Part shown: positions 34,091-50,142 of the stretch, in pieces
How the letters are laid out: each line of letters starts with the position of its first letter
How positions within the stretch are numbered: position 1 is the first letter of the stretch
Assembly (NCBI RefSeq): GCF_011305535.1
Contig: NZ_CP049905.1
Coordinates: 186,001 to 250,000, forward strand
Direction: 5' to 3'
DNA length: 64,000 nucleotides
DNA from: Diaphorobacter sp. HDW4B
Lineage (GTDB): Bacteria; Pseudomonadota; Gammaproteobacteria; Burkholderiales; Burkholderiaceae_C
Notes under the pieces: model-generated
The model's database searches: none
Told to the model about the DNA's origin: nothing
Seen by the model: the letters and a program-made list of their open reading frames with translations, nothing else
Program-made: the position numbers and the translations under genes

Positions 34091-34618
34091 TCACCCGATC
34101 AGCGCACCCAACTCCTTGAAAGCCGCCCGAGAAATCCGCCTTCCCTCCTTGGCCGCATTGACTTGCAAGGCGACCCGCGCCACTTCCAGCAGATCGCGAT
34201 TGATCGCATAGCCTGCCCTGTTCTCCAGCCAAACCAGCAAGTCCGCCAAATGCCAGATGGAGGTGCTGCCCTCGTGCACGGGCACAGGGAAATCGGCGGC
34301 AGTGTGCATCAGCATCAGCTTGCGCATGTTCTGGCGCGAGACGCCGACAAGCTCGGCCACGTCCGACAGCCCCACCAGATCAGGGGCGACCTCGATCAGT
34401 TGAGCCGATGGGACTGCATTTCGTACATCCGCCAAGGCACTTTGCACAGCCACCTCGGCGGTTGGGGCCTCGCGAACGAACTCCAGCGCCAGGCGTCCGG
34501 GCTGGCCTGTGCCGACCAAAGCGTCGTCGCACCCGGCCTCGCCCAAGCGCTCGATCAAGGCGTCCATGTCGTCGCTTTCATTGGAGAGCTGATACTTGAG
34601 CACAAAGGTGAACTCCAT
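34091..34618 (-). CDS. Helix-turn-helix protein, probable antitoxin of a HicA-like pair
   Basis: About 175 residues. The N-terminal domain (MEFTFVLKYQLSNESDD...) has a ferredoxin-like alternation similar to HicB-type antitoxin folds. A MerR/AlpA-like HTH follows (LVGLSDVAELVGVSRQNMRK) with an SIWHLADLLVWLEN wing, and the C-terminus is basic. The ATG at 34618 has an AGGAG ribosome binding site and begins 7 bases after the stop of the upstream HicA-like gene. The order toxin-then-antitoxin and the palindromic operator ahead of the pair support a toxin-antitoxin unit. Pair identity is inferred, not proven. Confidence 0.7.
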   Translation of the reverse strand: MEFTFVLKYQLSNESDDMDALIERLGEAGCDDALVGTGQPGRLALEFVREAPTAEVAVQSALADVRNAVPSAQLIEVAPDLVGLSDVAELVGVSRQNMRKLMLMHTAADFPVPVHEGSTSIWHLADLLVWLENRAGYAINRDLLEVARVALQVNAAKEGRRISRAAFKELGALIG

Positions 34619-34625
34619 CGTCTTT

Positions 34626-34898
34626 CTACTCCTGTGATTGCTTGCCTTCATTTCCCGACTCCTGTCTGGAACAGTGATCGACAACACGCCTCAAGGCGCG
34701 CGCATGGTTTCCAGGATTTCTGGGCGTGCTCCAGACGCTCGTGATGCAGAACTCACCGCATCGACAATCGGCGTCGTTGTAGGGACAGTAGATCCGCCCC
34801 CATGCGTGACTGCCGCCGACCGTGATTCGCCAGCCAAGCATTTCCGCATGCCTCAACGCCTCCTCGACTTCTTTCTTTGGATGAGCCGGACGTGCCAT
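34626..34898 (-). CDS. Small HicA-like protein, probable toxin
   Basis: A 90-residue basic protein. KEVEEALRHAEMLGWRITVG followed by GSHAWGRIYCP resembles the double-stranded-RNA-binding-like fold of HicA mRNA interferases, where a Gly-Ser-His segment contributes the catalytic His. The centre has clustered cysteines (CPYNDADCRCGEFC), which is unusual for HicA and may bind metal. The tail RNPGNHARALRRVVDHC is basic. It is the first gene of a two-gene operon with the HTH protein. Confidence 0.65.
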   Translation of the reverse strand: MARPAHPKKEVEEALRHAEMLGWRITVGGSHAWGRIYCPYNDADCRCGEFCITSVWSTPRNPGNHARALRRVVDHCSRQESGNEGKQSQE

Positions 34899-35117: not shown

Positions 35118-35147
35118 AAAGCCCGCAGCTTTGAGGCTGCGGGCTTT
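35118..35147. terminator. Strong bidirectional intrinsic terminator
   Basis: AAAGCCCGCAGC (35118-35129), loop TTTGAG, GCTGCGGGCTTT (35136-35147): a perfect 12-bp stem flanked by A-run and T-run, so it can act on both strands. On the minus strand it lies about 43 bp beyond the short E-W-E-stop tail at 35190, as a native terminator of a truncated gene would. Confidence 0.85.
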
Positions 35148-35451: not shown

Positions 35452-37437
35452 CTAGGGTGCCTCAACAACGACAAGCCGAACCTTCGGATCTGGTGCCTCT
35501 GCGGCTGGCAGCTTTTTGGCGAGATCGGCCAACGCAAACGTGTCGTAAACGAAGTCGACGAACTTCACCAAGCCTTGCTTGTTGTTCAAGCCCACGCTGA
35601 GCGCATTGCAAGTAACAGAAGCGTCGATGTCATTCGCTGCGTAGTAGGTCGAGAGTTGTTGGCCGATCCAGAGCGCAATGCGCATACTCATGTCGTCCTG
35701 GAAGAAATGCAAGTTGTTGTGTTTAGCCACTTGAACCACAAGCGGCTCTTGGGTTTCCGTGTTTAACCAAGGAAGGGGCTTGCCTTCTGGAAACTTTTTT
35801 CCGTACAGGAACAGCCGCACGTTTCGAACCTCAATGCGCGTAGTTCTTAGTGAAGCAAACCGGGTCATGTGGTTCGCAGTGGCCGAGAGGAAGTGGGTCG
35901 CTATGTCGTGTCGAAGTCGGCCGACCACATGCAGACCTTCTTTCGCCGCATAGTCGATGAACTTTGAGATCAACAAGGCCAGTTGCCGACCTTTTACGAG
36001 CCTAAGGTCGTATTCCTTGCCATTGATGATCAGTCCTCGGGCGACCAGGTCCTCCGTTTTGTGCGCAGGCATCCGATTCTCAATGACCTCGATGGGCAAT
36101 GCGACAGCGAACTGCGCGGTCTGCACAGGGTTCGCGAGCTTCTCAGGTCGCGTTGCTGCATTCAGATCACACTGCTGCGTAATATGAACTAGGCATTCCG
36201 TATCGGGCGACAGGTTCTCAGGCGCCAAGACGGCGCCGAATGGCACCAGCCGATTGAATTTCTTCAAGGCTTCCGCAGGATCCACAGAGTCGAGTGCCTC
36301 CGGCACCGAGAAGCCCGTCCACGTAAAGTGTGAGACCAGATCGCGTCCGGCTTTCGACTTCACGAAGGGGGCGATAAAGCGCTGACCAATTGTTGGCGGC
36401 CCTGGCGCTTTCTTGAACTGCTGCTGGAAGCAGGTGTCTAGGGCCTCGATGGCCTTGCCTACGGACGGCGATGACTCGACGTGCCAAAGATACTCTCGGG
36501 CCATCAACTCATTCAGATGCTCATCATAGGGATCGTTGTCCGTGAATGCGCTGAGGTGAATTTCCTGCATAGCGCCTGCATCAAGATTCCAAAGCGCGAC
36601 GTTTGCCTTTTCACGCGCTGTCTCAAGCGCCTTCATCCAAGAGCGCATGAAGACCCGCATGTGTTGCGCCACATCACGCTGGCGGAATAGCTGTTGGTAG
36701 CACAGCGTGAGTCCCGGAGCGCCAAAATCTTTTCGTCGGATCTCGGCCTTGGGCAACAGTAGGAGACCCGCGGCACTGATATTGGATTCGGTGCTGAACC
36801 GCAGTCTCTCTTGCATAAGCTCATCACTGTTGGACATGACCACGATGCAAGGAAGAGGTGCAGGATAGGTGACGTTTCCCATCTCCATGAGGTAGTCAAC
36901 AATCTCATCCACCGCGCCCGCACTCTTGTGCAGAACTAGATCAAGGATCAGAAAATCGTACTGGAGCAACGTCAGCGGCTGACTTGGTCTGGCGCTGGCG
37001 AAAGTTGTTTCAAATTCTGGTGCTGGAAATGCCTTCTCGACCTGCGATCTCAAGTCAGCGACCATAGCCGCACGTTCAAGGAAACCAGCCAGTGGACCCG
37101 TTAACAGAGGCGTGGCGTTGTTCCGGAAGTAGTCGGACAGAAGCACGTCACGCACAAACTCGGTCGAACTCAAGTACGCCAGCGCCTTGACCGGCTCCTC
37201 CTCGTCAAGCGACGGGAAGCTCTTGATATGCATCACGATCGGCCAAAGTTCCTCAATCTCCGGACTGGTCAGGTCACCGAAGACTTGAGCAATATTCGCC
37301 GTGTGGTCCGTTAGGTGAGCGTATGTCAGGCCCGCAAGTTCGTCGTCAATCACCATAACCTTCACAGCCGGTGTGGTTAGGACGGGCGCAACCTCAGAGG
37401 TTGCCGCCGCAGCAACGCTTTCGACCTGTGCAGTCAT
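35452..37437 (-). CDS. Large protein with a split receiver (REC) domain, fifth gene of the ssp-like operon
   Basis: A 661-residue protein I cannot name. The first 235 residues read as a response-regulator receiver domain interrupted by roughly 110 residues. The acidic pair is in VMVIDDE (Asp31-Asp32), the phosphoacceptor strand in DFLILDLVLHK (Asp166), the Ser/Thr strand in CIVVMSNSDE (Ser202) and the Lys in LLLLPKAEIR (Lys230). The remaining 400 residues match no family I recognise and contain no obvious nuclease or DNA-binding motif. Its start overlaps the stop of the dual-GHKL gene by 4 bp. That partner has a histidine-kinase-like half, so phosphotransfer between them is a natural hypothesis. 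Confidence 0.75.
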   Translation of the reverse strand: MTAQVESVAAAATSEVAPVLTTPAVKVMVIDDELAGLTYAHLTDHTANIAQVFGDLTSPEIEELWPIVMHIKSFPSLDEEEPVKALAYLSSTEFVRDVLLSDYFRNNATPLLTGPLAGFLERAAMVADLRSQVEKAFPAPEFETTFASARPSQPLTLLQYDFLILDLVLHKSAGAVDEIVDYLMEMGNVTYPAPLPCIVVMSNSDELMQERLRFSTESNISAAGLLLLPKAEIRRKDFGAPGLTLCYQQLFRQRDVAQHMRVFMRSWMKALETAREKANVALWNLDAGAMQEIHLSAFTDNDPYDEHLNELMAREYLWHVESSPSVGKAIEALDTCFQQQFKKAPGPPTIGQRFIAPFVKSKAGRDLVSHFTWTGFSVPEALDSVDPAEALKKFNRLVPFGAVLAPENLSPDTECLVHITQQCDLNAATRPEKLANPVQTAQFAVALPIEVIENRMPAHKTEDLVARGLIINGKEYDLRLVKGRQLALLISKFIDYAAKEGLHVVGRLRHDIATHFLSATANHMTRFASLRTTRIEVRNVRLFLYGKKFPEGKPLPWLNTETQEPLVVQVAKHNNLHFFQDDMSMRIALWIGQQLSTYYAANDIDASVTCNALSVGLNNKQGLVKFVDFVYDTFALADLAKKLPAAEAPDPKVRLVVVEAP

Positions 37438-39779
37438 GCCTCCTCCTTCGGCAACTCGATAGTGAACGTGCGCAGTCGACCGTCATCCTCTGGAAGCTCG
37501 TCAAGGTAGATGCGTCCTCCGTGATAGTCGACAAGCTCGGCCGCGATGTAAAGGCCCAGACCCTTCCCTTTTTTTCGCGTGGAGTAGTAGGGCTTGAATA
37601 TCTCCTTGGCATACTTTGGATCTACGCCAGGTCCGTTGTCAGAAACGCTGATTGTGAGCGCCTTTGAATCAATTTCGATTCGGATCGACCGCTCTACCTC
37701 GCCCTCCTTCAGACCCTGCTGCAACCAATAGACGGAGTTGGTCAGCAGATTCTCTAGCGTTTGCGCGATCAATCCGCGCACCATGTAGACATTCAGAGGC
37801 TTGTCTGCAGCGCCGTCATCCAACGAGATATCGCAAGTAATTTCGTGGCGCTGGAACCTGTTCTTGAAACCAGCCACGATCGTCTTGGTCTGGGCTACCG
37901 CGTCATAGTTCTCCCGCCGGTGCCGTCCTGAAGGGCTCATCGCATCGACAGTTCGAATGCGTTTGTTGGTCGCGATGATCTGAGTGCGTAGGTTGTCAAC
38001 GACTTGAACAACGTCGGCTTTGCCGTCTTTCTTCTGAAGGTCCACCAGCAACTCGCCGGTTCGCTCCGTCAGACGGGACAGTTCATGAATTACGATCTCC
38101 ACGACCAACCCGATATTGGCCAGTTCCAGCAACTCGACCCGGGTCTCCCTCGCCATATTCAGGGAGTTCTTGATTGTCTTCACGTATTCGACCTGACTCT
38201 GCAGCGTCTCCCGGATCTCAGTTATCTTGTGCCGCTGTTCCCTCGGAAGCTCCTTGCCAATCTCATCGATCGCACGAATGGTCTTCTTGAGGCTTTCCTC
38301 CGACTTCTTCAATGATTCGGTGGTCGACTCCTCGGCGATTGCGATCTTCGCTTCGGCCTCTCGGATCGTATTGATGTGAACTCGCAAATCCTTGACGACG
38401 ACGTCCCCCAACAAACTCTTGAGCAGCAATTGCTCGGGGCATGCAACGAGGCGCTCGCGGTTCGCCGAGTCAATCAAGTGTGGGTTGGTGAGGGAAGAGA
38501 TGCTGACACTCCCAATGGTCTGATAGCGGTTCAGCGCGAACCCTTTGGCGCGCAAGGCGCCACTGTCCCATTCAAGCCAGTCGTCCTCCATCCCACCAGT
38601 CTTTCCGACCCGAAAGTTATCGCGGTACAAGGCAAACCCGCCGCACCACTGGTTCAGCTCTTCGGCGATCTCGTTGCGCGTTCGTTCGACGGTGTTGCCG
38701 GTCAGCATTTGACGGTTGAACCAAAGGCAATTGGCCACGAATGGCCCAAGGCGGACAAAGGTATCCGCCGGAAGGCCCAACTCCTGAGTCAGCTCGCGCA
38801 TTTCCCAGGCGCGCGTCTCCGACGACGTTGCATCCCGCCATCGAAGGCTTCGGCGAAGAATCTGCTTTGTCCCATCGATGCCATGAGGGTTGAACGTGAT
38901 GTCCGCCTTGAACTGCGCACAGTTCTCCAACCATGGAGGCAGAGATGCTATCGGCTGTCGCTTGCCGTTGAGAAGAACGTCGACCGGGTAAGGACGTCTT
39001 TCCTTGGCGAAAGGGTTCTGCAGCCGCCTCATGTACCGCTGTATGAAGCCTTGGACTTTTTCCTGCGTCCAGTTGGCAGACAGTTCCTTTATTTCGATCT
39101 GTGTGCCCTGAGCGGTGAGGTCTGCCTCGCCCGCTGATTCGACATCAACGTCGACCTGGTCAAGAAAGAGGCTCGTATCGTCGAATCGATCCCAACGAAA
39201 CTTGATCTCATTCCATCGGGCGCTGCCCTTTTTTGCTGATCGCACGGTTGCAACATTACCCAACCGCATCATCGACAACCGACCGATACCCTTCTCACCA
39301 AGAAGTGGTGAGTCGCCGGGATTTGCAGTGCGTTTGGCCAGGAGTTTTCCTGGGGTTCCGATAACCAGGAAGCGATCGGAGAGTTCGTCTGCGCTCATGC
39401 CCACCCCGGTGTCGGATATCTTGAGGGACTGCTCCTGACGAAATTCCTTCAGGTGCTCAGCAAAGTCGACGCGGCTTTCGATGTATCCATGCAGCCGCTC
39501 AATCAACTCTGATCGCTGCGCCATCGACACGTCCGGCGAGATAGCTTTGTCCACTCGCTCCAGCGCCTCCTGCTTCGTGACCTTCTTCTGACGAATTTGC
39601 TCTTCTAGCAAGGCCAACGCGGCGAGGTCAGCAAATGAGTGAATCTCCACGCTCACGCGCGGCGATCGAGCATCGAATGCGTTTTTGATCAGCTCATTCA
39701 GGGCAACGTCATCGGACGTAATCAGTTCGGCACCGAGCTGACGTAGCGCGCGCGCGGCAATCCGGAATCCTCCAGCCAT
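37434..39779 (-). CDS. Protein with two GHKL ATPase domains (MORC/Hsp90-like plus histidine-kinase-like), fourth gene of the ssp-like operon
   Basis: A 781-residue protein. The N-terminal GHKL domain has N-box ALNELIKNAFDA (about 26-37), G1 SDTGVGM (122-128) and G2 GEKGIGRL (161-168). Residues 460-600 are helical, with a dimerisation/phosphoacceptor-like helix holding an H-box, VIHELSRL (His565). The C-terminal second GHKL domain is of kinase type: N-box TLENLLTNSVYW, G1 SVSDNGPGV (711-719), then YYSTRKKGKGLGLYIA. No membrane span, so it is a cytosolic sensor or clamp. It sits 36 bp after the sspD-like gene and overlaps the receiver gene. Not part of the Ssp systems I know. Confidence 0.85.
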   Translation of the reverse strand: MAGGFRIAARALRQLGAELITSDDVALNELIKNAFDARSPRVSVEIHSFADLAALALLEEQIRQKKVTKQEALERVDKAISPDVSMAQRSELIERLHGYIESRVDFAEHLKEFRQEQSLKISDTGVGMSADELSDRFLVIGTPGKLLAKRTANPGDSPLLGEKGIGRLSMMRLGNVATVRSAKKGSARWNEIKFRWDRFDDTSLFLDQVDVDVESAGEADLTAQGTQIEIKELSANWTQEKVQGFIQRYMRRLQNPFAKERRPYPVDVLLNGKRQPIASLPPWLENCAQFKADITFNPHGIDGTKQILRRSLRWRDATSSETRAWEMRELTQELGLPADTFVRLGPFVANCLWFNRQMLTGNTVERTRNEIAEELNQWCGGFALYRDNFRVGKTGGMEDDWLEWDSGALRAKGFALNRYQTIGSVSISSLTNPHLIDSANRERLVACPEQLLLKSLLGDVVVKDLRVHINTIREAEAKIAIAEESTTESLKKSEESLKKTIRAIDEIGKELPREQRHKITEIRETLQSQVEYVKTIKNSLNMARETRVELLELANIGLVVEIVIHELSRLTERTGELLVDLQKKDGKADVVQVVDNLRTQIIATNKRIRTVDAMSPSGRHRRENYDAVAQTKTIVAGFKNRFQRHEITCDISLDDGAADKPLNVYMVRGLIAQTLENLLTNSVYWLQQGLKEGEVERSIRIEIDSKALTISVSDNGPGVDPKYAKEIFKPYYSTRKKGKGLGLYIAAELVDYHGGRIYLDELPEDDGRLRTFTIELPKEEA

Positions 39780-39815
39780 TTTCTTCTCCTTCTTAGCTAG
39801 GCAATGACGTGCAAC

Positions 39816-40718
39816 TCACTTGTGGCACACCAAGCAGGCGCCGCCCCCTTCGTCCTCACCGAACAGATCATCAATATCCGTCGGCTCCACAAATCTAATC
39901 GGGCGTAGCGGGTTAACGGGCTTGCGCGCCTGCTCTCGTGCCTTGCGAGCAATGAAATCTGCCTCAATCGCAGCGATGCGATCCGGCCGCTCAAGGTCAG
40001 AGAGAGATTCGCCCTGCGACCATGTGAAGGGAGACCCATGTTCGCGAGCACTTTTCTCGTAGCGTTTGGCCTCTTCGTAAGCATCCGGGTGGTTGCGCTT
40101 GAGGTTAACCCATTCGATCTTCTGTTGAAAAAAACAAAAGGTGCAACCACTGCGAGATCGCCAGTCGTAGTATTTCGGCAAGCCCAGACCGGACGCCCCC
40201 AACAATTCGATTACACCTTGCTTGTCGATACCGACCTCACGGAACGGATAGACAACTTTCAGGTTCTCTTGCGTAGGCGCAAATCCTTGCCGATAGTCCT
40301 CGTCCGCACGTATTGCCACGTAGCTCGTGATTCGATGTCCTGCAGCCAAACCCGGCCGCAGCCACTGTCGAAACGGAAGCAACTTGAGTTGACGCGTGCA
40401 CCATCGAGTGCTTGCTGACGGCAGGAAATGCCCGTACTCGCGCAGCCAGAAATCGAAGTCTCGGTCGGGGTTCAGGCGAAGAATCGCTTTGCCTAAGAAG
40501 CCTTCGAGCCGCCCTAGAAACTCGTAGACCTCGGGCAGTTCCTTGCCGGTGTCCGTGAAGAAGTACTCAAGGTCGAGCTCTGGATGGTGCTGTCGCATAT
40601 AGACCGCAAGAGCTGCACTGTCCCTGCCGCCTGACAGTCCCAGCACATGCCGTTGGATCACGTTGACCGTTTCAGTACAGGGCGCCTTCGGCGTTGAATT
40701 TGCGATCGCAACGGTCAT
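39816..40718 (-). CDS. sspD: PAPS-reductase-fold ATP pyrophosphatase, SspD/DndC-like
   Basis: A 300-residue protein of the adenine-nucleotide alpha-hydrolase/PAPS reductase family. The PP-loop is GLSGGRDSAALAVY (Ser29-Ser34), with YFFTDTGKELPEVYEFL following. Conserved cysteines are in TRWCTRQLK, SGCTFCFFQQ and a C-terminal ACLVCHK, consistent with an iron-sulfur or sulfur-relay role. In DNA phosphorothioation systems this type of protein activates the DNA backbone with ATP for sulfur insertion. It overlaps the large ATPase gene by 4 bp. SspD rather than DndC is chosen because DUF4007 and the large P-loop protein accompany it and no dndB, D or E is present. Confidence 0.85.
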   Translation of the reverse strand: MTVAIANSTPKAPCTETVNVIQRHVLGLSGGRDSAALAVYMRQHHPELDLEYFFTDTGKELPEVYEFLGRLEGFLGKAILRLNPDRDFDFWLREYGHFLPSASTRWCTRQLKLLPFRQWLRPGLAAGHRITSYVAIRADEDYRQGFAPTQENLKVVYPFREVGIDKQGVIELLGASGLGLPKYYDWRSRSGCTFCFFQQKIEWVNLKRNHPDAYEEAKRYEKSAREHGSPFTWSQGESLSDLERPDRIAAIEADFIARKAREQARKPVNPLRPIRFVEPTDIDDLFGEDEGGGACLVCHK

Positions 40719-43700
40719 CGTGAAACCTTTTCGTTTGAACTCACCGCCTCAACCAGCTTTGTTCCCGCCTGTGCCAGCGCCGCAAGAAACACTTCGCGCT
40801 TTACGTCCTTGAACTGCTTCATGATCGCGTCAGAGAGTTGCTGGATGTGCCGATTCTCCGCTGGCGAGATATCGAAGCTCTCGGAAACAGTCTTGCCTTT
40901 CTGGCCTGTCCCGAACACGACCGCGATGGCGTTGCGTGTCGGTTCGCGGTGCTGGACCGAACTGACCGCTTCGACTTGGCGGAACTGGAGTCCCCACTGG
41001 GCCAGCTGAATCAAGGCCGCATCGATGTCTTGATCAGTCCACTCGCGCGGAGGTTTGTTCACCGCTGGGCTCAATAGGCTCTCGATCGATTCGGGATCGC
41101 GACTGAGGATGGACAGCCGGCTTGCAAACGTGTCGAGCCGAAAGTCGCCGGAGATGCCCACGACGTTCTTAGCCCGACGTCGAACTGCGTCAACGTCTTC
41201 ATCAGAGGTGAACGATGCATCGAGCGTTTCCAGCGTTCGCGTCATCACACGCGCAAGCATGCTGGAGTAAGCACTCTGCATTTCCTCGAGCGCGGTCCCG
41301 AGCGCGTCCAGGTACTCCTGCACGGACAGACCTTCGAACAGCACCGGCAGGTCCACAAATAACACCCGATGCGGGTCGCTCGCTTTGCCGAGCGTGTCAC
41401 GCACCGCGCGCGTTCGTTCGCCCATCAGCTGCGTTCGACGCGACCACGGCGGAAGGTCGAAGACGAGTGAGACGAGCCCACGAGCAGCTTCCAGCGGCTC
41501 GGACGCGACAGTTCGTCCGACCTTGCGCAGATGCTTGGCGACGCCCTTCAGAATGTCTCGTCTGTATTCGTTGATTTGCACATGACGGATGGCAAATCGG
41601 CCTGCATCCTGCAGAGCCTCGTCAATGTCGACTTCGCTAAGTTGCGGAATGAACATACCGTCCTTGTAGACGGCCATGCGATGCTGATTGGCCAGCGCAA
41701 ATGCAAGCCAAAGCACTGGCAAAACCCCTGCCCTCACGCCATACGGTGGCGCTTGCCACAAGCGATGCAGGTCTGTCAGCGACACTGCGGCTGCCGCATC
41801 CACAATCATTGCGACTCCGGCGTCCCACAGTGCCACGAAGCTTCCGGCTCGTGAAGCGATCGGATCTCCCGCAACAGGAGCGGCAAAGCCATAGCGGGCC
41901 GATTCGCCGGTCTCGTTTTCACCATCGAGAGTCCGATGCAGGCCGCTAGCCTCCAGCAGATTGTGATACAGGCCGGCTTCCGCCGGAAAGCCCTCCAAGC
42001 CTAGGCGTCTGCGTTCCGCGCCCTTCAACATCGCATAGAGCAGATCCTTGCGAGCTTTCGTGCTGTTCGATGATGGAACATCTCGGTTGATAAGCTCACT
42101 GAAGACATGCGGAGCTTTGTAGAACACCCGATCGGCAAAAACCGATGCCAGATGCGGCAAGCTTGACGACAGTGCGTTCGATGAGACAGGTGCCAAGCCA
42201 AGCGATTCAACATTGAGCCACTGGATGCTGAGCAAAGCGTCCCGCAGTTCCTCTTCCAGGCGCGTTCTTACATCGGTGGTCCGCGCATCGAGTTCCCGGC
42301 GCCCCACCGCATCGTTCTCGAGTTCCGAGCGCTGCCGCCGAATGCGGTCGTACGCCATCAGTTCACGACCCAACTCGCGAATCGTTTCACCATTGCGCGG
42401 AATGCCTACCAGGACCGGACGCGCCGCATCCACCTGCCAGTCGAGCTTGCGAACGAGATTAGCGGCCTGCCGAACTGTTTGAGCACGTGCCGGCAACACC
42501 AGCAGGAATGCGCCGAATGCGCTGCTCTTTCCAAGCGATTTTCCAGGCTCACCGCACAACGCCGAAGCCCGATCGAGCCCCTCCAGGACGTGATTGGCAT
42601 GCGTCATCAGCGGCAACATCCAGCGCAGGGTGCCAGTCTCGCAGTAATGACGTTTGGCAAGCACCGGTTGCAGGCGAACTAAGTTGGCCAGTTGCGCAAG
42701 ATCCGGTTCATCAATCGTGCCGAGCGCTTCCGCAAGCGCTGCGTCCAAGTCGAAATCACTTCCCTCGGAGATGGCCCACGAACCCAAGTGCCGCTTGAAG
42801 GACACAACGGCCCAACGACGGAGGTCTTGGAGCAACTCCTGCAACTTGCTGGCGCCGAGATCGGATCCGTCAGCATTGCGTACGCAAGCGCCCAGCACAG
42901 CTTCGTCGGCAACAAGCCCGGATCCGTTTCTGAAGAGATCGATCAATGCGATCGTTTTCACCAGTTGCACGTGCAGATCGTCGTCCCGGTGCTTCTGTTC
43001 GGTTCGCTCGACGGCTTCCACACTCTGGGACCAACGATGACTGTCTGTGGAGGCAAGGATGCTCGGTTCGAGATTCGTACGCAGATAGTCCCAATAGGCG
43101 GCCGGCGTATACGTCGCTCTGGACGACGCGAGTGTCGATTGGAGGAATTCGCGAAAGCTTCGCGCTTCAGCGGAGGCGAGGAATCCGAAAGTACTGCGCT
43201 CGTTCTGCCCGAAACGGCGCTTGGACACGGGGCCGAGCAGTGCGGCGGTCACTGGGTGCAGCGGCCAGCAAAGGTCGAGCCGCGCTGCAAATTCAGGGTT
43301 TAGTGCCGGCCGGCGGTGCCGGATGGATTCCGCCACTTGCTTCGCGACAGCGAAGGATTCGGGATGCGCGCACGATGAATGGATCGCACGGCCCGTCAAT
43401 TCGACAACCTCATCCGAAGCGGCAATGAGCGGAATGTCGATGTAGCGCCCTTGCACCTTGCGCCACTCGTCGCGCAACTCCGAGCCCAAGCGATGCGCGT
43501 ACTGCTCGAAAGATTGGTGAAGAATACCCACCACAATGAGCTTGCCTTTGGCTCGGCCCGCCAGGTCGGCCAGCTCCTGATAGAAGTAGACATCATCGCC
43601 GTCGCTGGCGGATGCCTCAAGGAACTTACCAAGTTCGTCGATGACCAACAATACGCCGTTGCCGACGCGTCGCTCAGCTTCGTCAGATAGTGACCGGAAC

Positions 43701-44275
43701 AGCGTAGCCAGCCGTTGCCTCGATCCCGACTTAGTCGTCGAAACAACCTCCGTACTTGCGCGTTCGTCTAGGCACGCCCCCACCGCATCGACAACGCTTC
43801 CGCGGTGGCCGACCACTGGAAGGATTAACCAGCCGTCCTTTGAAGCCGAGAACACTTGCGCGATGTCAGATTTCTCGTGGCCATCGAGTTCAAGCACGTC
43901 CTTGGCAGCTCGTCTGACGGTTCTGTCTGGCGCCACCAAGCTGCACAAAGCCACTGCCAAGGACGATTTACCACCACCGAAGGGGCCGGTCCAGATGAAC
44001 GCGCGTTGGGGCGTCTGCAGAACATGTCGTGCTGTGGCCTCCAGTACGTGCCGTGCCGTGCCTTGGCAGATGTATCCGCGAAGCGCATCAATGCTCCCGA
44101 AGTCAACATCGAGCCGAACCGCCCGCTGGAATTGCCTAGTCAGCGTGACTTCATCAGCCAGTAGCGGACCTTCGCGAGGCACAGACTCCACGGCTGCCAA
44201 TGAAGACGAAACGGATGACTTGGATGGCAACTTCTTCCGCGGGCGAGCGGCCTCGGCGACTTTCTGCTTAGACAT
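40715..44275 (-). CDS. sspC: Large P-loop ATPase, SspC-like
   Basis: About 1186 residues. Walker A is FIWTGPFGGGKSSLAVALC (about 93-111 from this start) and Walker B is GVLLVIDELGKFLEAS (about 207-222); the remainder is largely helical. Similar P-loop proteins occur beside DUF4007 and PAPS-reductase-like genes and are distantly like BrxC/PglY, but no pglZ or brx companion is present. The start at 44275 lies inside the end of the upstream DUF4007 gene (8-bp overlap), indicating coupling. It probably supplies ATP-driven remodelling to the modification complex. Confidence 0.8.
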   Translation of the reverse strand: MSKQKVAEAARPRKKLPSKSSVSSSLAAVESVPREGPLLADEVTLTRQFQRAVRLDVDFGSIDALRGYICQGTARHVLEATARHVLQTPQRAFIWTGPFGGGKSSLAVALCSLVAPDRTVRRAAKDVLELDGHEKSDIAQVFSASKDGWLILPVVGHRGSVVDAVGACLDERASTEVVSTTKSGSRQRLATLFRSLSDEAERRVGNGVLLVIDELGKFLEASASDGDDVYFYQELADLAGRAKGKLIVVGILHQSFEQYAHRLGSELRDEWRKVQGRYIDIPLIAASDEVVELTGRAIHSSCAHPESFAVAKQVAESIRHRRPALNPEFAARLDLCWPLHPVTAALLGPVSKRRFGQNERSTFGFLASAEARSFREFLQSTLASSRATYTPAAYWDYLRTNLEPSILASTDSHRWSQSVEAVERTEQKHRDDDLHVQLVKTIALIDLFRNGSGLVADEAVLGACVRNADGSDLGASKLQELLQDLRRWAVVSFKRHLGSWAISEGSDFDLDAALAEALGTIDEPDLAQLANLVRLQPVLAKRHYCETGTLRWMLPLMTHANHVLEGLDRASALCGEPGKSLGKSSAFGAFLLVLPARAQTVRQAANLVRKLDWQVDAARPVLVGIPRNGETIRELGRELMAYDRIRRQRSELENDAVGRRELDARTTDVRTRLEEELRDALLSIQWLNVESLGLAPVSSNALSSSLPHLASVFADRVFYKAPHVFSELINRDVPSSNSTKARKDLLYAMLKGAERRRLGLEGFPAEAGLYHNLLEASGLHRTLDGENETGESARYGFAAPVAGDPIASRAGSFVALWDAGVAMIVDAAAAVSLTDLHRLWQAPPYGVRAGVLPVLWLAFALANQHRMAVYKDGMFIPQLSEVDIDEALQDAGRFAIRHVQINEYRRDILKGVAKHLRKVGRTVASEPLEAARGLVSLVFDLPPWSRRTQLMGERTRAVRDTLGKASDPHRVLFVDLPVLFEGLSVQEYLDALGTALEEMQSAYSSMLARVMTRTLETLDASFTSDEDVDAVRRRAKNVVGISGDFRLDTFASRLSILSRDPESIESLLSPAVNKPPREWTDQDIDAALIQLAQWGLQFRQVEAVSSVQHREPTRNAIAVVFGTGQKGKTVSESFDISPAENRHIQQLSDAIMKQFKDVKREVFLAALAQAGTKLVEAVSSNEKVSR

Positions 44276-45233
44276 AGGCCAGCTCCAATGCGGACGCAAG
44301 ATCCAACGGCTGGGTGCGAATCACCTGCCGTAAACCGGCCGAGTCTGACCACTGATACGCACCCTTGGTAAGAGATTCCAGCGCAATAAGACGGGCAGCC
44401 ACCGAATCCTCATCAAGTTTGAACACGCGACCGGGCGAGCCGATCTCATAGGCGATAGTCTCAAATGACAAAGTGCTTTGGTCGGGAGCAAACGCCTGCC
44501 AGAATTCCACTAGGGCATAGAGGAACGCGCCGTTCGTCAATGTCGACTTAGGCCCTCTTCGCAACGCGTACTCCTCACGGGACTGAGCCGAGATGAGACC
44601 GAGTTCGCCCAACATGGAGTCGGCGAAATCATCCACCGAGCTTGTCTCTGATCGATCAACGTAGCACCGCATGCAGACCTCGACATCCCGTTTGAGCGTG
44701 GCAGGTGACAGACGCCCTCCCCGGTCTCGCGCGTAATCGTCTAGTGACTTGAGCAGACTTTTGGCCGTGAAGCTCTGCTCATGAATGTGGTTAAACACCC
44801 AATACCATGTGGCACTGCGATGGGTTCGATCCTGCATCGACCACCCCCCCGCAAGCTTCCAGTGGACCAGCCAAAGGGTAGACGGATGTTCGCTATAAGG
44901 GTCCAAGCCGTCGTCAGCAAAGACGCGAGCCCCAAACATCGTAGACGTCGGCACGCCGTTGATATCTGTCAGAACATCACAGGCGGTCGCCCAATGGCGA
45001 ATCGACGCCACCATGTTTTTGCCCACACCGAGCGTGACAATCGATGCGTCATCGCTGAAGACGTTCTTTTTGTGACCACGGCTTAGAGTCGAGCCATGGT
45101 TATTCTGACGGCTGCTATTCTGATCGCCGCCCACCACGTCTATCGCCTTCTTCAGCCAGAGTTGCCGAAGTGCAAAAGTCTCATGACCGGAAAAAAGTGG
45201 CCGATAGCTATCTAAATATAGAAGTCCACGCAT
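44268..45233 (-). CDS. sspB: DUF4007 protein, SspB-like DNA nickase
   Basis: About 321 residues. The DUF4007 signature is plain: PLFSGHETFALRQLWLKKA near the N-terminus, then FSDDASIVTLGVGKNMVASI and RHWATACDVL. In the Ssp phosphorothioation system the DUF4007 protein SspB is described as a single-strand nickase that opens the backbone for sulfur insertion. The ATG at 45233 (MRGLLYLDSY) puts the signature at the usual N-terminal place; the longer frame would translate the palindromes upstream. First gene of the five-gene operon. The cysteine desulfurase partner SspA is absent and might be supplied by IscS elsewhere. Confidence 0.85.
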   Translation of the reverse strand: MRGLLYLDSYRPLFSGHETFALRQLWLKKAIDVVGGDQNSSRQNNHGSTLSRGHKKNVFSDDASIVTLGVGKNMVASIRHWATACDVLTDINGVPTSTMFGARVFADDGLDPYSEHPSTLWLVHWKLAGGWSMQDRTHRSATWYWVFNHIHEQSFTAKSLLKSLDDYARDRGGRLSPATLKRDVEVCMRCYVDRSETSSVDDFADSMLGELGLISAQSREEYALRRGPKSTLTNGAFLYALVEFWQAFAPDQSTLSFETIAYEIGSPGRVFKLDEDSVAARLIALESLTKGAYQWSDSAGLRQVIRTQPLDLASALELAYV

Positions 45234-45296: not shown

Positions 45297-45676
45297 TGTT
45301 CCCATCTTAGCGCATACAGTCCGGTTGGAAAAATACAAGCTTATTCGAACTATCGAGTTTTCAAGTTCGATTCTTTTTAGCTATCAAAGTTACCCGGAAC
45401 GCAGATGCTCCAGCACGTGAAAAGTGTCAGAAGACGAACAACGCTTCACGTACGTGCCACCGACCAGGTCTTCGGCCCCAAGCAATTTCCGTCGGCAGTG
45501 AGAGGCGCCATCGACAGCTTTCGCTGCGAACCCCAATATCAAGCTGGGGATTGCCGTTCGTCAGCGCTCAACCTGGAACGGCCACCCGCAGCGATTTGTC
45601 GGTCGTCGGGTTGCACCACCACGGTACCGGACCTGTGCGCCGATGGACCGTATGCATCACCCCATACCATCGGCGA

Positions 45677-46492
45677 ATGAACAAGGGAACACAATCCGAA
45701 CGAGCGCAACTGGTCGACATCGGCGTCAACTTCCACTCGGCGCAGTTGACGTCTCTGGCCGACCGATTGTTGGTGCGTGCACGGGCGGTCAACGTGACCC
45801 AGATCCTCGCCACAGGCACATCGGTGGCATCCAGTCATCTTGCCCTTGAGCTTGCAAGAGCCAATCCGGGCACCGTCTTCGCGACTGCTGGGGTACCCCC
45901 TCATGACGCAAAGTCGTACGACACAGGCACCTTCCGCGAGCTGACCGAACTCTTGAAGTGCCCGGAGGTCGTGGCAGTTGGAGAATGTGGCCTTGACTAC
46001 AACCGCAACTTTTCGCCTCCCCAAGCGCAGCGCATTGCCTTCGAGCAGCAGCTTTCAATGGCTGTCGAGACTCGCAAGCCGCTGTTTCTTCACTGCCGAG
46101 ACGCCTTCACCGATTTCCACGACATGCTTACCCCTGTGGTGGCCGCCGGAGCGCGCGGTGTCGTGCACTGTTTCACGGGCAACCGCGCGGAAGCAGAAGC
46201 CTTTCTCGCGATGGGGCTCGACATCGGCATCACGGGCTGGGTCACAGATCTCCAACGCGGCCAGGCACTTCGCGAAGCCCTGCCAGCCATTCCGCTGGAT
46301 CGACTGCACCTTGAGACGGATGCCCCTTATCTGTTCCCCAAGAATGCCGAAACGCGTCGTGGACACAACGAGCCGGCGAATCTTCCCTGGGTCGCGGCAA
46401 GCGTGGCAGAGCTCCTAGGCTGCGACATCGACGAGATCATTCAGGCCTGCAGTTCCAATAGTCGACGGATGTTTGGCCTTCCAGGCAATTGA
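45677..46492 (+). CDS. tatD: TatD family metal-dependent DNase
   Basis: A 271-residue TIM-barrel nuclease, closely following E. coli TatD in layout: DIGVNFHSAQLTSL, VGECGLDYNRNFS with the metal-binding Glu, LFLHCRDAF, VVHCFTGNRAEA, GITGWVTDLQRG, LETDAPYLFPKN and NEPANLPWVA. It is a 3'-5' exonuclease/DNA-repair enzyme by family; TatD homologues also occur in defence operons such as Qat, but no Qat partners are here. Start ATG 45677 chosen from the conserved N-terminus. Divergent from the ssp-like operon, between it and the conjugative element backbone. Confidence 0.92.
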   Translation: MNKGTQSERAQLVDIGVNFHSAQLTSLADRLLVRARAVNVTQILATGTSVASSHLALELARANPGTVFATAGVPPHDAKSYDTGTFRELTELLKCPEVVAVGECGLDYNRNFSPPQAQRIAFEQQLSMAVETRKPLFLHCRDAFTDFHDMLTPVVAAGARGVVHCFTGNRAEAEAFLAMGLDIGITGWVTDLQRGQALREALPAIPLDRLHLETDAPYLFPKNAETRRGHNEPANLPWVAASVAELLGCDIDEIIQACSSNSRRMFGLPGN

Positions 46493-46929
46493 AGCGCTTC
46501 GACCCCTCTGGTCAATACACATGCTCGGCGCGTCACGGGCACCCTTTCAGGATGAGCAGGTCCGGGTTATCAGCAAATCCACTGCCAGGCCGGTCCAACG
46601 ACGAACCAGAACTGTGCATCCCCGGCGATGCCGGGCCGCGCTGTACGTGCTGCGCATCGAGCCACCTGAGGCGTCTCGCCCCTTCGGCTCCCATCGCTGA
46701 TGCCTTCGCGGCGGTGCCGCTGCGCGCTGCGCTTGTCAATGCGGGCGTGGTGGGGTGTGGGTGGGGCTGGCTTGCTGTTCCCTTCATCCTTGCACACCGT
46801 TCTCGCTGTCAAGGTCTGCGCATGCTGCGCACGCTGGCGCCCTGCCGGCCGTCTTCGAACCTGTGACAACGGCGCTGCGGCGTGCCGGTTCCGGACTCGG
46901 GCAATCCCGCCCGATAACTGGAGTTAGCC
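46493..46929 (+). repeat. Leader of the radC-like gene containing two repeated leader modules
   Basis: A gene-free 437-bp stretch. Module 1 (46631-46696) reappears at 48841-48907, including a 17-base identity GTGCTGCGCATCGAGCC. Module 2 (about 46760-46929) reappears before the DUF2958 gene at 47560-47735, with GGTGGGGCTGGCTTGCTGTT (46760-46779) and CGGGCAATCCCGCCCG (46898-46913) identical. Both module-2 copies end just before a start codon with CTGGAGTT. They look like conserved 5' leaders of the element's genes. Confidence 0.65.
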
Positions 46930-47466
46930 GTGTCGCACGATCTTGTCTCTTCCCTCAATTCCTTCGTTGCCGTTTCCTCTGCTGCTTCTTCACTGCTCGT
47001 TCGTGATGTCGCTGGCAGCTACCGGCCAGCCGAACCGGCAAAGGTGCTGCAGGCTGCGCTACGGGTGCTGGCGGGCCAGTTGCGTGGTACCGAATTGTTG
47101 TCGTCTCCGCAAGCGGTACGCGATTTCCTGCGCATCCAACTGGGCAGGCTGGAGCATGAGGTGTTCGCGGTGATCCACCTGGATGCCCAACACCGGGTCA
47201 TCGAGTACGTGGAGATGTTTCGCGGCACGGTGAGCCAGACGTCGGTATACCCGCGCGAGGTGGTCAAGGAGGCGCTGGCACGCAACTCTGCGGCCATCGT
47301 CCTGGTGCACAACCACCCTTCGGGCTTCGCCGAACCCTCACGGGCCGATGAGCTGCTGACCCAAACGCTCAAGAGCGCGCTGTCGCTGGTGGACGTACGG
47401 GTCATCGATCACCTGATCGTGGCCGGGGCAACCATCCTGTCCTTTGCCGAACGCGGGCTGATCTGA
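46930..47466 (+). CDS. radC: RadC-like JAB/MPN domain protein of the conjugative element
   Basis: A 178-residue RadC-family protein. The JAMM metalloprotease-like motif is VLVHNHPSGFAEPSRADELL, preceded by HEVFAVIHLDAQHRVI. It lacks the N-terminal HhH part of chromosomal RadC, as usual for copies on integrative elements. The start is GTG at 46930 with GGAG upstream. It is the first backbone gene of the Tn4371-like element; such RadC copies are common element markers, with no proven repair role. A terminator-like hairpin follows. Confidence 0.9.
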   Translation: MSHDLVSSLNSFVAVSSAASSLLVRDVAGSYRPAEPAKVLQAALRVLAGQLRGTELLSSPQAVRDFLRIQLGRLEHEVFAVIHLDAQHRVIEYVEMFRGTVSQTSVYPREVVKEALARNSAAIVLVHNHPSGFAEPSRADELLTQTLKSALSLVDVRVIDHLIVAGATILSFAERGLI

Positions 47467-47475
47467 GTCCGTGCA

Positions 47476-47500
47476 ACCGAGGGCCACTCAGGCCCTCGGT
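47476..47500 (+). terminator. Hairpin terminator after the radC-like gene
   Basis: ACCGAGGGCC (47476-47485), loop ACTCA, GGCCCTCGGT (47491-47500): a perfect 10-bp stem 10 bp past the stop. The downstream T-run is weak, so termination may be inefficient. Confidence 0.6.
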
Positions 47501-47559
47501 TATCAGTTCGCGGCCATCAGCGTGCCATCGCGTGGCACGAGTCCCTGGATAGGAAGGTT

Positions 47560-47735
47560 GGTGGGGCTGGCTTGCTGTTGCACCCAGCGTGCCACGTCGT
47601 TCTCGCCGTCAAGGTCGGCGCGCATCGGTGATGCGCTGGCGGCCTGGCAGGCCGTCTGCGAACCTTGACCGCTGCGCTGCGCCGTGACCCGGAGGCTGCG
47701 GGCAATCCCGCCCGGCATTCCCTCTGGAGTTCACC
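47560..47735 (+). repeat. Second copy of leader module 2, before the DUF2958 gene
   Basis: This copy repeats the radC leader: GGTGGGGCTGGCTTGCTGTT (47560-47579), a near-identical CGTTCTCGCCGTCAAGGTC block, CGGGCAATCCCGCCCG (47699-47714), and CTGGAGTT directly before the ATG at 47736. The bases between these blocks diverge, as expected for a structured or protein-binding leader under constraint. Confidence 0.6.
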
Positions 47736-48083
47736 ATGAACGCACTCATCACCGACGAGCAGCGCGTGCTGCTGCTGGCCAACGGCCGCGAATCCCTGCA
47801 GAACCTCGACTTCGACCCCAAGCCCGTGGTCAAGCTGTTCACGCCCGACGCCGGCGCGACCTGGCTGCTGACCGAGATTGACCCGAACGACCACGTCCAT
47901 GCTTTCGGTCTGTGCGACCTGGGTCTGGGGGCGCCAGAGCTGGGCTGGGTCAGTCTTCAGGAACTGATGACGGTACGGGGTCGGCTCGGACTGCCGGTTG
48001 AGCGCGACCTGCACTTCCGTGCCGAGAAACGGCTGAGCGCCTACGCCCGAGACGCACGGCTGGCCGGACGCATCATCGTCTGA
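47736..48083 (+). CDS. DUF2958 domain protein (copy 1)
   Basis: A 115-residue protein. MNALITDEQRVLLLANGRES, then PVVKLFTPDAGATWLLTEID, then GLGAPELGWVSLQELMTV are typical of DUF2958 proteins, which are restricted to conjugative elements and plasmids. A second copy of exactly the same length lies at 58091. A TGGAG ribosome binding site precedes the ATG. No biochemical function is known. It is followed by a strong terminator. Confidence 0.88.
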   Translation: MNALITDEQRVLLLANGRESLQNLDFDPKPVVKLFTPDAGATWLLTEIDPNDHVHAFGLCDLGLGAPELGWVSLQELMTVRGRLGLPVERDLHFRAEKRLSAYARDARLAGRIIV

Positions 48084-48090
48084 CCATCCG

Positions 48091-48117
48091 CCAGGGCGTC
48101 GCCGACGCCCTGGTTTT
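48091..48117 (+). terminator. Rho-independent terminator after DUF2958 copy 1
   Basis: CCAGGGCGTC (48091-48100), loop GCC, GACGCCCTGG (48104-48113), then TTTT. It separates the plus-strand DUF2958 gene from the converging minus-strand gene that ends at 48117. Confidence 0.82.
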
Positions 48118-48788
48118 CAGGGTTTGAGCAGATCCGGCAGGCAGTCGGCAAACGCCGGCTGGATCTTGCTCATCGGTTTGGCGATGGTCTCATCGCCGGT
48201 GAGAATGGCCATCGTCATGCCGGTCATGGTGGTAAGGCCGTTCGAGTTGCGCAGCACCTGCAGCGCCAAATGCACCGGAAACCCCTCGGCGCTGCGCCGC
48301 AACGGGTGGATGCCGCCATGCACGAAGGAATTCATGGCGTTCCAGGAGACGTCCTTGAAGTGCGCCAGCATCTGGTGGGCCGCTGCGGGAACGCCTTGCC
48401 CTACCCGCTTGCCCATCTGATCGATCATGTCTTTTGCACTCGGCAAATTCTTGGCGGCCTGCTCGGCTTCGATTGTCAGCGGTACCGACAACTTCTCGAT
48501 GGCCGCGTCGCTGGCGGCATAGATCAGCCACATCGCTCGCGTCAGCGCCTCGAATTGCAGCCGCATCAGGCTGACGGCCGAGGTCGGCATGCCCAGCGTC
48601 ATCAAGGCACGCAAAGCCATTGCGTGTTCCATGGCGACCACACACATGCCCAAAGAGGCTTCCCCACGCGGAGATCCATCGAACGCCGCATCGTCAAGCA
48701 ACTCGTTCAGCCGCACATGCAAGGCATCGGAGCGTTGAAGCAATTGCTCCAGCAGGTCATCGGGATGAGCATGTTCTCTCTCGGGCAT
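48117..48788 (-). CDS. Hypothetical helical protein (DUF6988-like)
   Basis: About 223 residues, mainly helical. It contains CVVAMEHAMALRALMTLGMP, LMRLQFEALTRAMWLIYAAS, a SFVHGGIHPL motif and a GLTTMTGMTMAILTGDE segment. The pattern matches the DUF6988 group as I recall it (a HEPN-superfamily-like look), but function is unknown. Start chosen as MPEREHAHPD at 48788; an alternative ATG lies at 48815. It is the only backbone-region gene on the minus strand apart from the cassette array and the XRE gene, so it may be a later insertion. Confidence 0.7.
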   Translation of the reverse strand: MPEREHAHPDDLLEQLLQRSDALHVRLNELLDDAAFDGSPRGEASLGMCVVAMEHAMALRALMTLGMPTSAVSLMRLQFEALTRAMWLIYAASDAAIEKLSVPLTIEAEQAAKNLPSAKDMIDQMGKRVGQGVPAAAHQMLAHFKDVSWNAMNSFVHGGIHPLRRSAEGFPVHLALQVLRNSNGLTTMTGMTMAILTGDETIAKPMSKIQPAFADCLPDLLKP

Positions 48789-48840
48789 GTCGCCATCGTA
48801 AAGCCCGCTACGCATTCGGGCGTCCCCGGCCAATGAACAT

Positions 48841-49314
48841 GGCCGGTCGCGCTGTTGTGCTGCGCATCGAGCCCCTGCAGGGTCTCGCCCCCTTCGGGCT
48901 TCCATCGTCCCCTCGCTCCGCTCGGCTGACGCCTCCGGCCCGGCTTCCAGTTTCGGGCCTGCGCGCTTCGCTTGCCGTGCGGTCGGCAGTGGAAGGGGCC
49001 GTTGCCTGTCCAGCCATCTTTCCTGACTCCATCACCTTGCTCGCGACTGTAGCCCGCAGCCGTGCGCCGTCAAGGCGCGCAGGGCCGTGTCCTCGGCTGC
49101 GCCTGCGGGCCGCACCCACCCTGCGCTTGTCTCCTTGACGGCCCCCGTCCACGGGCTCCCTTTCGTCGCGGGCGATGAACTCAGGAAAGACGGTGGCAAC
49201 GAGGCCAACCGGGTTCTTCGTGCCGACCGCACCGAACAGCCAAAAGGCTGGGCTTCGAATCTAGGAATCCGGTGTGCGGTTTCTTCAACAGCCAACTTTG
49301 TCAGGAGAAAGACC
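48841..49314 (+). repeat. Leader of the DUF932 gene with a copy of leader module 1 and a long-range inverted repeat
   Basis: 48841-48907 repeats the module seen at 46631-46696 (GTGCTGCGCATCGAGCC at 48857-48873). Further on, GCCGTCAAGG (49066-49075) can pair with CCTTGACGGC (49133-49142). No convincing gene lies here. AGGAGAAAG precedes the DUF932 start. Confidence 0.55.
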
Positions 49315-50142
49315 ATGCAACTCGCATCCCGTTTCGCAAACCATTCCCCCGCATTGCGTGCCGACCATCCCCTGTCGGATGACCAGATTCACCGCGTAGC
49401 GCCTTCCATCTTCGCGGAGGCCCCGCATGAGAGCCGTTCACACCGGTACGCCTATATCCCCACGGCCACGGTCTTGACCGAGCTTCGAAAGGAGGGGTTT
49501 CAGCCCTTCATGGTGTGTCAAACCCGCGTGCGCGATGAAGGCAAGCGCGAGCACACCAAGCACATGCTGCGCCTGCGCCACGTCAGCCAGATCAACGGCG
49601 CGGAAGCTAACGAAATCGTGCTGCTGAACTCGCACGACGGCACGAGCAGCTATCAGATGTTGGCGGGATTGCTGCGCTTTGTTTGCAGCAATGGCCTTGT
49701 CTTTGGCGACACCTTTGCCGATGTGCGCATACCCCACAAAGGCGACGTGGCGGGCCAAGTCATTGAAGGCGCCTACGAGGTGCTGCACGGCTTCGAGCGG
49801 GTGAAGGAATCCCGCGACCTGATGCGCGGCATCACCTTGGACGATGGTGAATCGGACGTGTTCGCCCGCGCTGCGCTGGCCCTCAAGTACGACGACCCGG
49901 ACAAGCCCGCCCCCATCACGGAATCGCAAATCCTGATGCCGCGCCGGTTTGAAGACCGCCACACGGATTTGTGGTCGGTCTTTAACCGCACCCAAGAAAA
50001 CCTCACAAAAGGTGGCCTGTCCGGGCGCAGCGCCAACGGACGCCGCCAGCAGACCCGCCCCGTGCAGGGCATTGATTCAGACATTCGCCTCAATCGTGCC
50101 CTGTGGCTGCTGGCCGATGGCATGCGCCAGTTGAAAGCCTAA
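49315..50142 (+). CDS. DUF932 domain protein
   Basis: A 275-residue protein of the phage/plasmid-like DUF932 family. The conserved string FMVCQTRVRDEGKREHTKHM is followed by RHVSQINGAEANEIVLLNSH, SSYQMLAGLLRFVCSNGLVF and the C-terminal RALWLLADGMRQLKA. The ATG at 49315 follows a strong AGGAGAAAG. DUF932 genes are regular backbone genes of Tn4371-like elements next to parB; the function is unknown. Confidence 0.9.
   Translation: MQLASRFANHSPALRADHPLSDDQIHRVAPSIFAEAPHESRSHRYAYIPTATVLTELRKEGFQPFMVCQTRVRDEGKREHTKHMLRLRHVSQINGAEANEIVLLNSHDGTSSYQMLAGLLRFVCSNGLVFGDTFADVRIPHKGDVAGQVIEGAYEVLHGFERVKESRDLMRGITLDDGESDVFARAALALKYDDPDKPAPITESQILMPRRFEDRHTDLWSVFNRTQENLTKGGLSGRSANGRRQQTRPVQGIDSDIRLNRALWLLADGMRQLKA

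Follow-up and report, generated by a model that had tools for sequence, protein, structure and literature searches.

A minus-strand operon of five genes, which occupies positions 35452-45233 (-) of a 64,000-nucleotide stretch of the Diaphorobacter sp. HDW4B genome (hereafter, the window), encodes homologs of SspB, SspC and SspD, a module for phosphorothioation (PT) of DNA, followed by a predicted histidine kinase with two GHKL domains and a predicted receiver protein. We put at about 0.55 the probability that this operon is a PT-based defense system of a third Ssp restriction type. It combines two known kinds of systems, Ssp on one side and the HEF_HK/Response_reg_2 elements on the other. The pairing of ssp genes with such a kinase and receiver, only glimpsed in print so far, recurs in several bacterial groups, and the PT-linked clade falls within a large family whose members are mostly neighbors of DNA methyltransferases.

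A phosphorothioation module joined to a predicted kinase and receiver

The operon runs in the order SspB, SspC, SspD, dual-GHKL protein and receiver-like protein, and the features are the following (window coordinates):

44268..45233, minus strand: gene 1, sspB-like (DUF4007), 321 amino acids (aa); Pfam PF13182, E=4.1e-80; PADLOC SspB, 1.1e-105
40715..44275, minus strand: gene 2, sspC-like (P-loop ATPase); PADLOC SspC, E=0
39816..40718, minus strand: gene 3, sspD-like (PP-loop / PAPS-reductase family), 300 aa; PADLOC SspD, 2e-135; PF01507 (PAPS_reduct), 3.8e-6
37434..39779, minus strand: gene 4, predicted dual-GHKL histidine kinase, 781 aa; N-terminal Hsp90/MORC-like GHKL, C-terminal DHp-like H-box (His565) and HATPase_c
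35452..37437, minus strand: gene 5, predicted receiver-domain protein, 661 aa; REC with an insert between strands 1 and 2, a helical region and a C-terminal domain with Cys423
35118..35147, minus strand: terminator-like hairpin from a consensus scan; 12-bp stem, then a T-rich tail

All five genes lie where the original prediction, made from the sequence alone, had placed them, with overlaps of 8, 4 and 4 bp and one 36-bp gap; the 8-bp overlap with sspB follows if gene 2 starts at the ATG at 44275 rather than at the TTG at 44299 listed for its open reading frame (ORF). An AGGAG-like stretch immediately precedes the ATG of both gene 4 and gene 5. The consensus scan found no sigma-70-like promoter, and the hairpin at 35147-35118 (-), about 300 bp beyond gene 5, is weak evidence for a terminator because the same scan of the stretch yielded 13 such sites against 11.3 expected by chance.

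The assignment of the DUF4007, P-loop ATPase and PP-loop proteins to SspB, SspC and SspD is upheld by the strong PADLOC matches, and the three are encoded together, as in Ssp systems. Gene 1, the sole DUF4007 match in the genome, is by homology the putative DNA-nicking component of phosphorothioation. SspA is absent from the operon; a cysteine desulfurase is nevertheless encoded elsewhere, as IscS scores above its curated cut-off at G000:C1:4750479-4751678, and IscS can serve instead of SspA (PMC8092258). With this housekeeping enzyme, SspBCD is predicted to insert sulfur into host DNA, an activity known for these families. As originally claimed, SspBCD here has neither an adjacent SspA nor, as far as detectable, a known restriction partner (SspE or SspFGH): GmrSD_N, the SspE domain, has no match in the whole host genome, and the genome query with SspH matched only a 784-aa ORF, over the FtsK-like end of SspH, with SspF and SspG not searched genome-wide.

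The two GHKL folds originally seen in the 781-residue product of gene 4 correspond to Pfam matches to HATPase_c_3 (2.2e-14, residues 114-191) and HATPase_c (5.4e-23, residues 671-779). In a comparison with solved structures, residues 515-779 of the gene 4 profile retrieve histidine kinases (LvrB, 1.4e-19), and residues 19-188 a heat shock (Hsp90-type) protein (1.1e-7). In an alignment of 88 non-identical family members of at least 650 aa, including the window protein, the H-box residue His565 is kept in 88/88 and followed by Glu in 72, and the N-box Asn of the first GHKL and both Asn of the second N-box are each conserved in 88/88. His565 and Asn677 are 112 residues apart, a spacing that resembles that of ordinary kinases. 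Gene 4 can accordingly be read as a predicted histidine kinase with an extra N-terminal GHKL module, and it shares the succession HATPase_c_3, H-box His and HATPase_c with HEF_HK-type kinases. The likeness to BbrUII/HgiDII restriction enzymes is limited to residues 114-254 and stays far under the cut-off of NCBIfam NF050001 (4.3e-19; 68.5 of 550 bits); the matches to PADLOC-DB are weak ones to restriction enzymes only.

Gene 5 matched no family in Pfam (E<=0.1), PADLOC or NCBIfam (E<=0.01). The receiver-like positions originally noticed in this 661-residue protein are nonetheless conserved in distant homologs: among gene 5 and 12 homologs whose identity to it is 12-42%, no sequence departs from D32, D166 or K230, and D31 and S202 are almost invariant; in a broader alignment that takes in two methyltransferase-linked partner clusters, D166 and C423 are invariant in 26/26 rows. 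The structural model used was produced with AlphaFold2 from the 26-row alignment (pLDDT 73.7); a single-sequence structure (pLDDT 34.5) was discarded. In the model, strands 1, 3, 4 and 5 end at residues 30, 166, 202 and 229, so that D31/D32, D166, S202 and K230 fall at the receiver positions. A Foldseek search with the model adds weak support: the best PDB row, LvrB (1.6e-3), contains a REC domain along with a kinase, and the receiver domain 3lte_D was retrieved at E=0.27 (prob 0.89, TMt 0.57). We conclude that gene 5 most plausibly encodes a receiver protein; Pfam matched no helix-turn-helix (HTH) or other known output domain in it.

The kinase/receiver pair in its own clade and in the wider family

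Seventeen loci of the PT-linked clade were examined, all gathered with gene 4 or gene 5 as bait and never with ssp genes: the window, Methylotenera L002, Polaromonas L005, Acinetobacter baumannii L006, Agrobacterium L015 and L113 (initially L007), Rhizorhabdus L013 and L114 (initially L008), Methylorubrum L009, Chlorohelix L010 (Chloroflexota), Devosia L011, Ensifer L012, Sinorhizobium L014, the virus-like contigs L022 and L023, L125, and Rhizobium L126. Since ssp genes lie near the pair in 17/17 of these loci, the pairing is more than chance, and it recurs in several bacterial groups. SspB was found in 15 loci, and SspC and SspD in 16 each, with the absences at cut ends; the ssp profiles were built partly from these very loci, whose rows match by construction (8/17 for SspB), and the annotation of the plasmid records, L126 excepted, agrees with the assignments. 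Gene 5 is present in 16/17 loci, the L022 contig ending inside gene 4, and in the same number the kinase and receiver genes are adjacent and conserved as a pair, the arrangement that characterizes HEF_HK/Response_reg_2 elements. On the A. baumannii plasmid record L006 the gene set recurs, with sspBCD convergent with the kinase and receiver genes; no SspE is annotated there, and the GQQR motif occurs in none of its called genes.

When 90 kinases were placed in a tree, a single branch (SH-aLRT 100) set apart the clade's 16 full-length members; this takes one change, against a mean of 15.0 after shuffling, with none of 500 shuffles as low. In all four nearest neighbors of the clade (L016, L078, L037 and L070), a methyltransferase-motif gene is no farther than three genes from the kinase. 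The original prediction would have been undermined if homologs of genes 4 and 5 occurred mostly without the first three genes, and the outcome is divided: the association with ssp genes holds in every examined locus of the pair's own clade, and the wider family resides mostly with DNA methyltransferases. As a separate observation, the sspF gene of plasmid pUPO218 (L114 12577-15399) is split in two, with an IS5 transposase gene between the pieces.

The wider family comprises 77 other loci, some of them near copies or cut at contig ends, that remained after removal of copies of the window (L003, L019), a 45-bit match (L021) and identical copies (L041, L075, L082). In 58/77 loci, a gene of 250 aa or more with a methyltransferase motif is three or fewer genes away from the kinase, leaving 19 without one by this pattern. 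Among genes of at least 250 aa, the motif occurs in 67/214 located no more than three positions from the kinase, compared with 9/262 located at least five genes away. For 49 upstream genes on the same strand, the Pfam matches, which overlap, were N6_Mtase (16), Eco57I (13), N6_N4_Mtase (10) and DNA_methylase (9).

The genes downstream of the kinase were sorted into clusters. Clusters A (20 members, of which 18 were aligned) and E (6 members) match the gene 5 cluster along most of its length (hhalign 98.2% and 97.3%). All 15 loci of cluster B, some of them near copies, include a gene with a methyltransferase motif along with the kinase, and the kinase is accompanied by a stand-alone receiver and another small protein; D, D, T and K are each conserved in 12 or more of the 13 aligned receiver rows, and the 13 aligned rows of the small protein share an HNH motif with the positions DH-P-N-CN-K, one member matching Pfam HNH at 8.7e-7. 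Cluster D (12) has a receiver-like protein, joined in 8 of its loci by a second clustered protein without a recognised family; in cluster F, one member gave matches to Response_reg and HEPN, neither of which reaches its cut-off; and in one of the two members of cluster K, a protein with a Response_reg match below cut-off is followed by a metallo-beta-lactamase-fold protein above it.

Two kinds of gene sets in this family can be recorded in their own right. Sets of the cluster B type (L047 4279-9095, L017 8535-13502 and 13 similar loci), found on virus-like contigs and one plasmid, consist of a gene with an N6-type methyltransferase motif, whose place in the order varies, and the genes of the dual-GHKL kinase, a stand-alone receiver and a protein with an HNH motif. 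At L085 5291-6097 and in seven relatives, the gene after the receiver encodes a protein of about 250 aa; members of this family do not vary at H, D, P, H, GG, PR and P positions, and the single one scanned had no Pfam match.

Genome samples yielded few matches to gene 5. Gene 5 or its profile was found in 2/399 genomes of the order sample, including the host itself (the other at E=9.6e-4), in 3/369 of the class sample (the host, G538 and one at 7.8e-4), and in 0/385 for the class of G914, in a search without a positive control; no match to gene 5 appeared in phage records, and none to the Acinetobacter pair by megablast in Escherichia coli genomes. DUF4007 was detected in 11/398 genomes of the phylum sample, and about 20 kb was inspected around each of the ten DUF4007 loci outside the window. 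Three of these (L117 14816-19168, L120 14675-19123, L122 11074-15414) add an independent link between PT modules and GHKL proteins: SspBCD adjoins a three-gene set, which by Pfam comprises a helicase, a single-GHKL protein and a PLD nuclease in L117 and GHKL and PLD proteins in L120, and which in L122 was assigned by length and sequence start only; the L117 DEAD helicase resembles PbeA of the Pbe phosphorothioation system (7.1e-27), and the L117 GHKL protein resembles MzaB (8.4e-17). SspFGH is present at L118, L123 and L124. L119 and L121 contain a gene with an SspE-like GQQR motif, a crude one that also occurs in SspD of L122. L115 (14564-19005) represents another PT-linked module outside the named types, with SspABCD and then a PLD-helicase protein of 714 aa and an AAA_23 (SMC-like) ATPase of 693 aa. 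L116 was assigned to none of these types. From this variety it follows that PT modules seem to plug into several kinds of restriction modules.

Possible mechanism and competing explanations

The conserved residues make a phosphorelay a well-supported candidate for the chemistry that genes 4 and 5 could perform; the original suggestion of such a relay is strengthened by the invariance of the H-box His and the receiver Asp. For the role of the pair at the system level, we infer the following course. SspB, SspC and SspD, together with IscS, would insert sulfur into host DNA as a self mark. The product of gene 4 would be the sensor, its N-terminal Hsp90/MORC-like GHKL domain closing on DNA or on an SspC/DNA complex as a clamp that may read PT status in an ATP-dependent manner. 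The kinase would then autophosphorylate on His565 and pass the phosphate to Asp166 of gene 5, and the change in the receiver would free or block the C-terminal domain, which may act as an effector on foreign DNA or on the cell. The relay could be triggered either by unmarked DNA, as for SspFGH, or by marked DNA, as for SspE. We favor an effector over gene regulation because the receiver joins or is fused with nuclease-type proteins in some related clusters and because no DNA-binding output domain was matched in gene 5.

A broader scheme, which we advance tentatively and at somewhat less than even odds, is a form of DNA-modification immunity whose verdict on self and non-self travels through a His-Asp phosphorelay. 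The GHKL clamp would read the mark, sulfur here and methyl in the relatives; the kinase would fire or fall silent; and the receiver would switch an exchangeable effector (HNH, HEPN, a metallo-beta-lactamase-fold protein or the Cys-containing domain of gene 5), so that the modification enzyme and the effector would be plug-ins around a fixed kinase/receiver core.

Several observations weigh against a defense system of this type. Gene 4 does not reach the Pfam cut-off of HEF_HK (14.7 bits versus 24.1; E=0.26), and, although the only HEF_HK match in the host genome at E<=10 is at window 37977-38117, over His565, this threshold also gives sub-cut-off matches in 11/14 control genomes. Assignment of gene 5 to Response_reg_2 was rejected, with 0 Pfam matches at E<=10 in its own genome. 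Foldseek with the gene 5 model gave no match at E<=0.001 in PDB or BFVD; a profile of 13 gene-5 proteins found no relative among PDB sequences, the one row being at E=0.4; and no nuclease fold could be recognized in gene 5 by families, solved-structure sequences or Foldseek. Clusters A and E, the partners most similar to gene 5, likewise matched no family in the one member scanned from each. The position of sspBCD relative to the pair varies, reaching a separation of about 9-10 kb in L113 and L114, whose ssp genes surfaced only once the stretches were lengthened. In the phylum sample, the pair accompanies DUF4007 in only 1/11 genomes, the window's own, and the notion of a pair widespread among DUF4007 genomes thus finds no support; given the separation in those two plasmids, this sample could overlook a pair lying far from the ssp genes. 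Finally, SspH lies near the pair in 6/17 clade loci by profile and in a seventh (L013) by annotation; PADLOC backs the SspF/G/H labels for L005 and SspF/G for L010.

Since part of the clade also has SspH, the pair is no plain substitute for SspFGH, and it could have a regulatory or helper role. In the regulatory version, the pair is a two-component system that senses the PT level or DNA damage and controls sspBCD (and sspFGH or another restriction gene elsewhere) without being an effector. This is the classical way to read a kinase and a receiver, and it has been proposed for the control of SspE in Acinetobacter (PMC7464106) and of restriction-modification (R-M) genes (PMC8011034). We nevertheless consider it unlikely: no output domain, HTH or otherwise, was matched in gene 5; in part of the wider family, the receiver accompanies, or is fused to, HNH, HEPN or metallo-beta-lactamase-fold proteins; and SspE and SspH are undetected in the host genome apart from the FtsK-like match, with SspH not seen in the stretches of 10/17 clade loci.

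The role of the first GHKL domain could also be construed differently, as a MORC/MutL-like DNA clamp; the pair would then restrict by ATP-driven DNA looping, with a vestigial phosphorelay and gene 5 as an accessory subunit. The N-terminal GHKL motifs are as invariant as the kinase motifs; DNA looping has been proposed for MORC-like GHKL proteins in R-M systems (PMC2292703); VcSduA, a GHKL-nuclease protein, loses defense when its ATPase motif is mutated (PMC12137116); and SspBCD adjoins the single-GHKL/helicase/PLD module at other loci. A vestigial relay would not be expected to keep His565 in 88/88 kinases and the receiver Asp in 26/26 rows, however, and we regard this explanation as improbable.

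Least probable of the explanations considered, in our view, is a PT-dependent epigenetic or stress-response locus without an antiviral role. An epigenetic role has been raised for the Acinetobacter ssp locus (PMC12421847), and no phage test of a PT-linked pair was found in the open-licence PMC literature. Against this, the operon adjoins an Mza-type system, identified by library scans of the window proteins, and relatives of the pair occur on plasmids and virus-like contigs next to modification genes, a frequent setting of defense genes. The preferred reading remains a PT-based defense system in which the kinase and receiver form the restriction arm.

Relation to described systems, surroundings and implications

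A survey of 2,678 sspBCD modules found sspFGH with 7.3%, sspE with 7.4% and both with 36 modules (PMC8092258), and by these figures most of the surveyed PT modules are without an assigned attack arm. The operon resembles the described Ssp systems in its SspB, SspC and SspD, recognized by strong profiles, in the possible use of IscS for SspA and in the setting, restriction genes adjoining sspBCD (PMC8092258). It differs from SspABCD with SspE or SspFGH in that a kinase and a receiver protein occupy the place of the restriction genes.

The composition, which the original prediction did not recognize as described, is in fact not wholly new. A paper of 2021 described a HEF_HK/Response_reg_2 pair beside R-M genes and gave its linkage, across 644 regions, as 91.6%; it left the function undecided, with R-M control as the proposal (PMC8011034). 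Such elements and the operon have in common a kinase with HATPase_c_3, H-box and HATPase_c, an adjacent receiver and a neighboring modification enzyme; they are distinguished by methylation there and phosphorothioation here, by the sub-cut-off score of gene 4 and by the lack of a Response_reg_2 match in gene 5. The main text of PMC8011034 contains no mention of phosphorothio-, PAPS, DUF4007, Ssp or FtsK. In 211 Acinetobacter strains, histidine kinase genes adjoin SspE, and a two-component system for SspE was surmised (PMC7464106); for the Ssp region of A. baumannii clone 2, with the nuclease missing and a two-component system present, a possible new variant was suggested (PMC12421847). The likeness of our operon to this global clone 2 locus is drawn through plasmid L006, which is matched at the species level and, as noted, has no annotated SspE. 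The main text of PMC10853773 mentions no GHKL, histidine kinase, receiver, response regulator, DUF4007 or HSP90, and a figure legend in PMC13092281 lists HATPase and REC among the domains of predicted, untested E. coli systems. No paper analysing the PT-linked pair was found in the open-licence PMC literature.

Type 4 BREX has BrxC/SspC, PAPS-reductase and DUF4007 relatives in common with the operon, and its core parts include PglZ and BrxL (PMC12839542); this assignment was rejected because neither is among the 15 window proteins scanned, the scan being confined to the window. The MORC/paraMORC GHKL proteins of R-M systems (PMC2292703), VcSduA (PMC12137116) and BbrUII/HgiDII share with gene 4 an N-terminal GHKL ATPase in a modification-linked or defense setting. 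Gene 4 differs from all of these by its full histidine-kinase module and its receiver partner. A parallel in signaling chemistry is Detocs, in which a His-Asp phosphorelay is used in phage defense. This relay is the trait shared with the operon; the difference is that Detocs is not known to have a DNA-modification module.

In the surroundings of the operon, a protein encoded at window 34091-34687 (-), between the Mza system and the Ssp operon, matches the PADLOC candidate PDC-M06B (1.3e-77). To the right, window 45551-52260 (+) contains TatD, RadC-like, DUF932 and ParB-domain genes, which are often seen on mobile islands.

The kinase/receiver pair is a concrete candidate for part of the missing attack arm of PT modules and of the A. 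baumannii Ssp system. If the proposed mechanism holds, two-component signaling, usually seen as a means of gene regulation, would become the decision step of a restriction-type immunity, and the wider methyltransferase-linked family would gain a mechanism as well.

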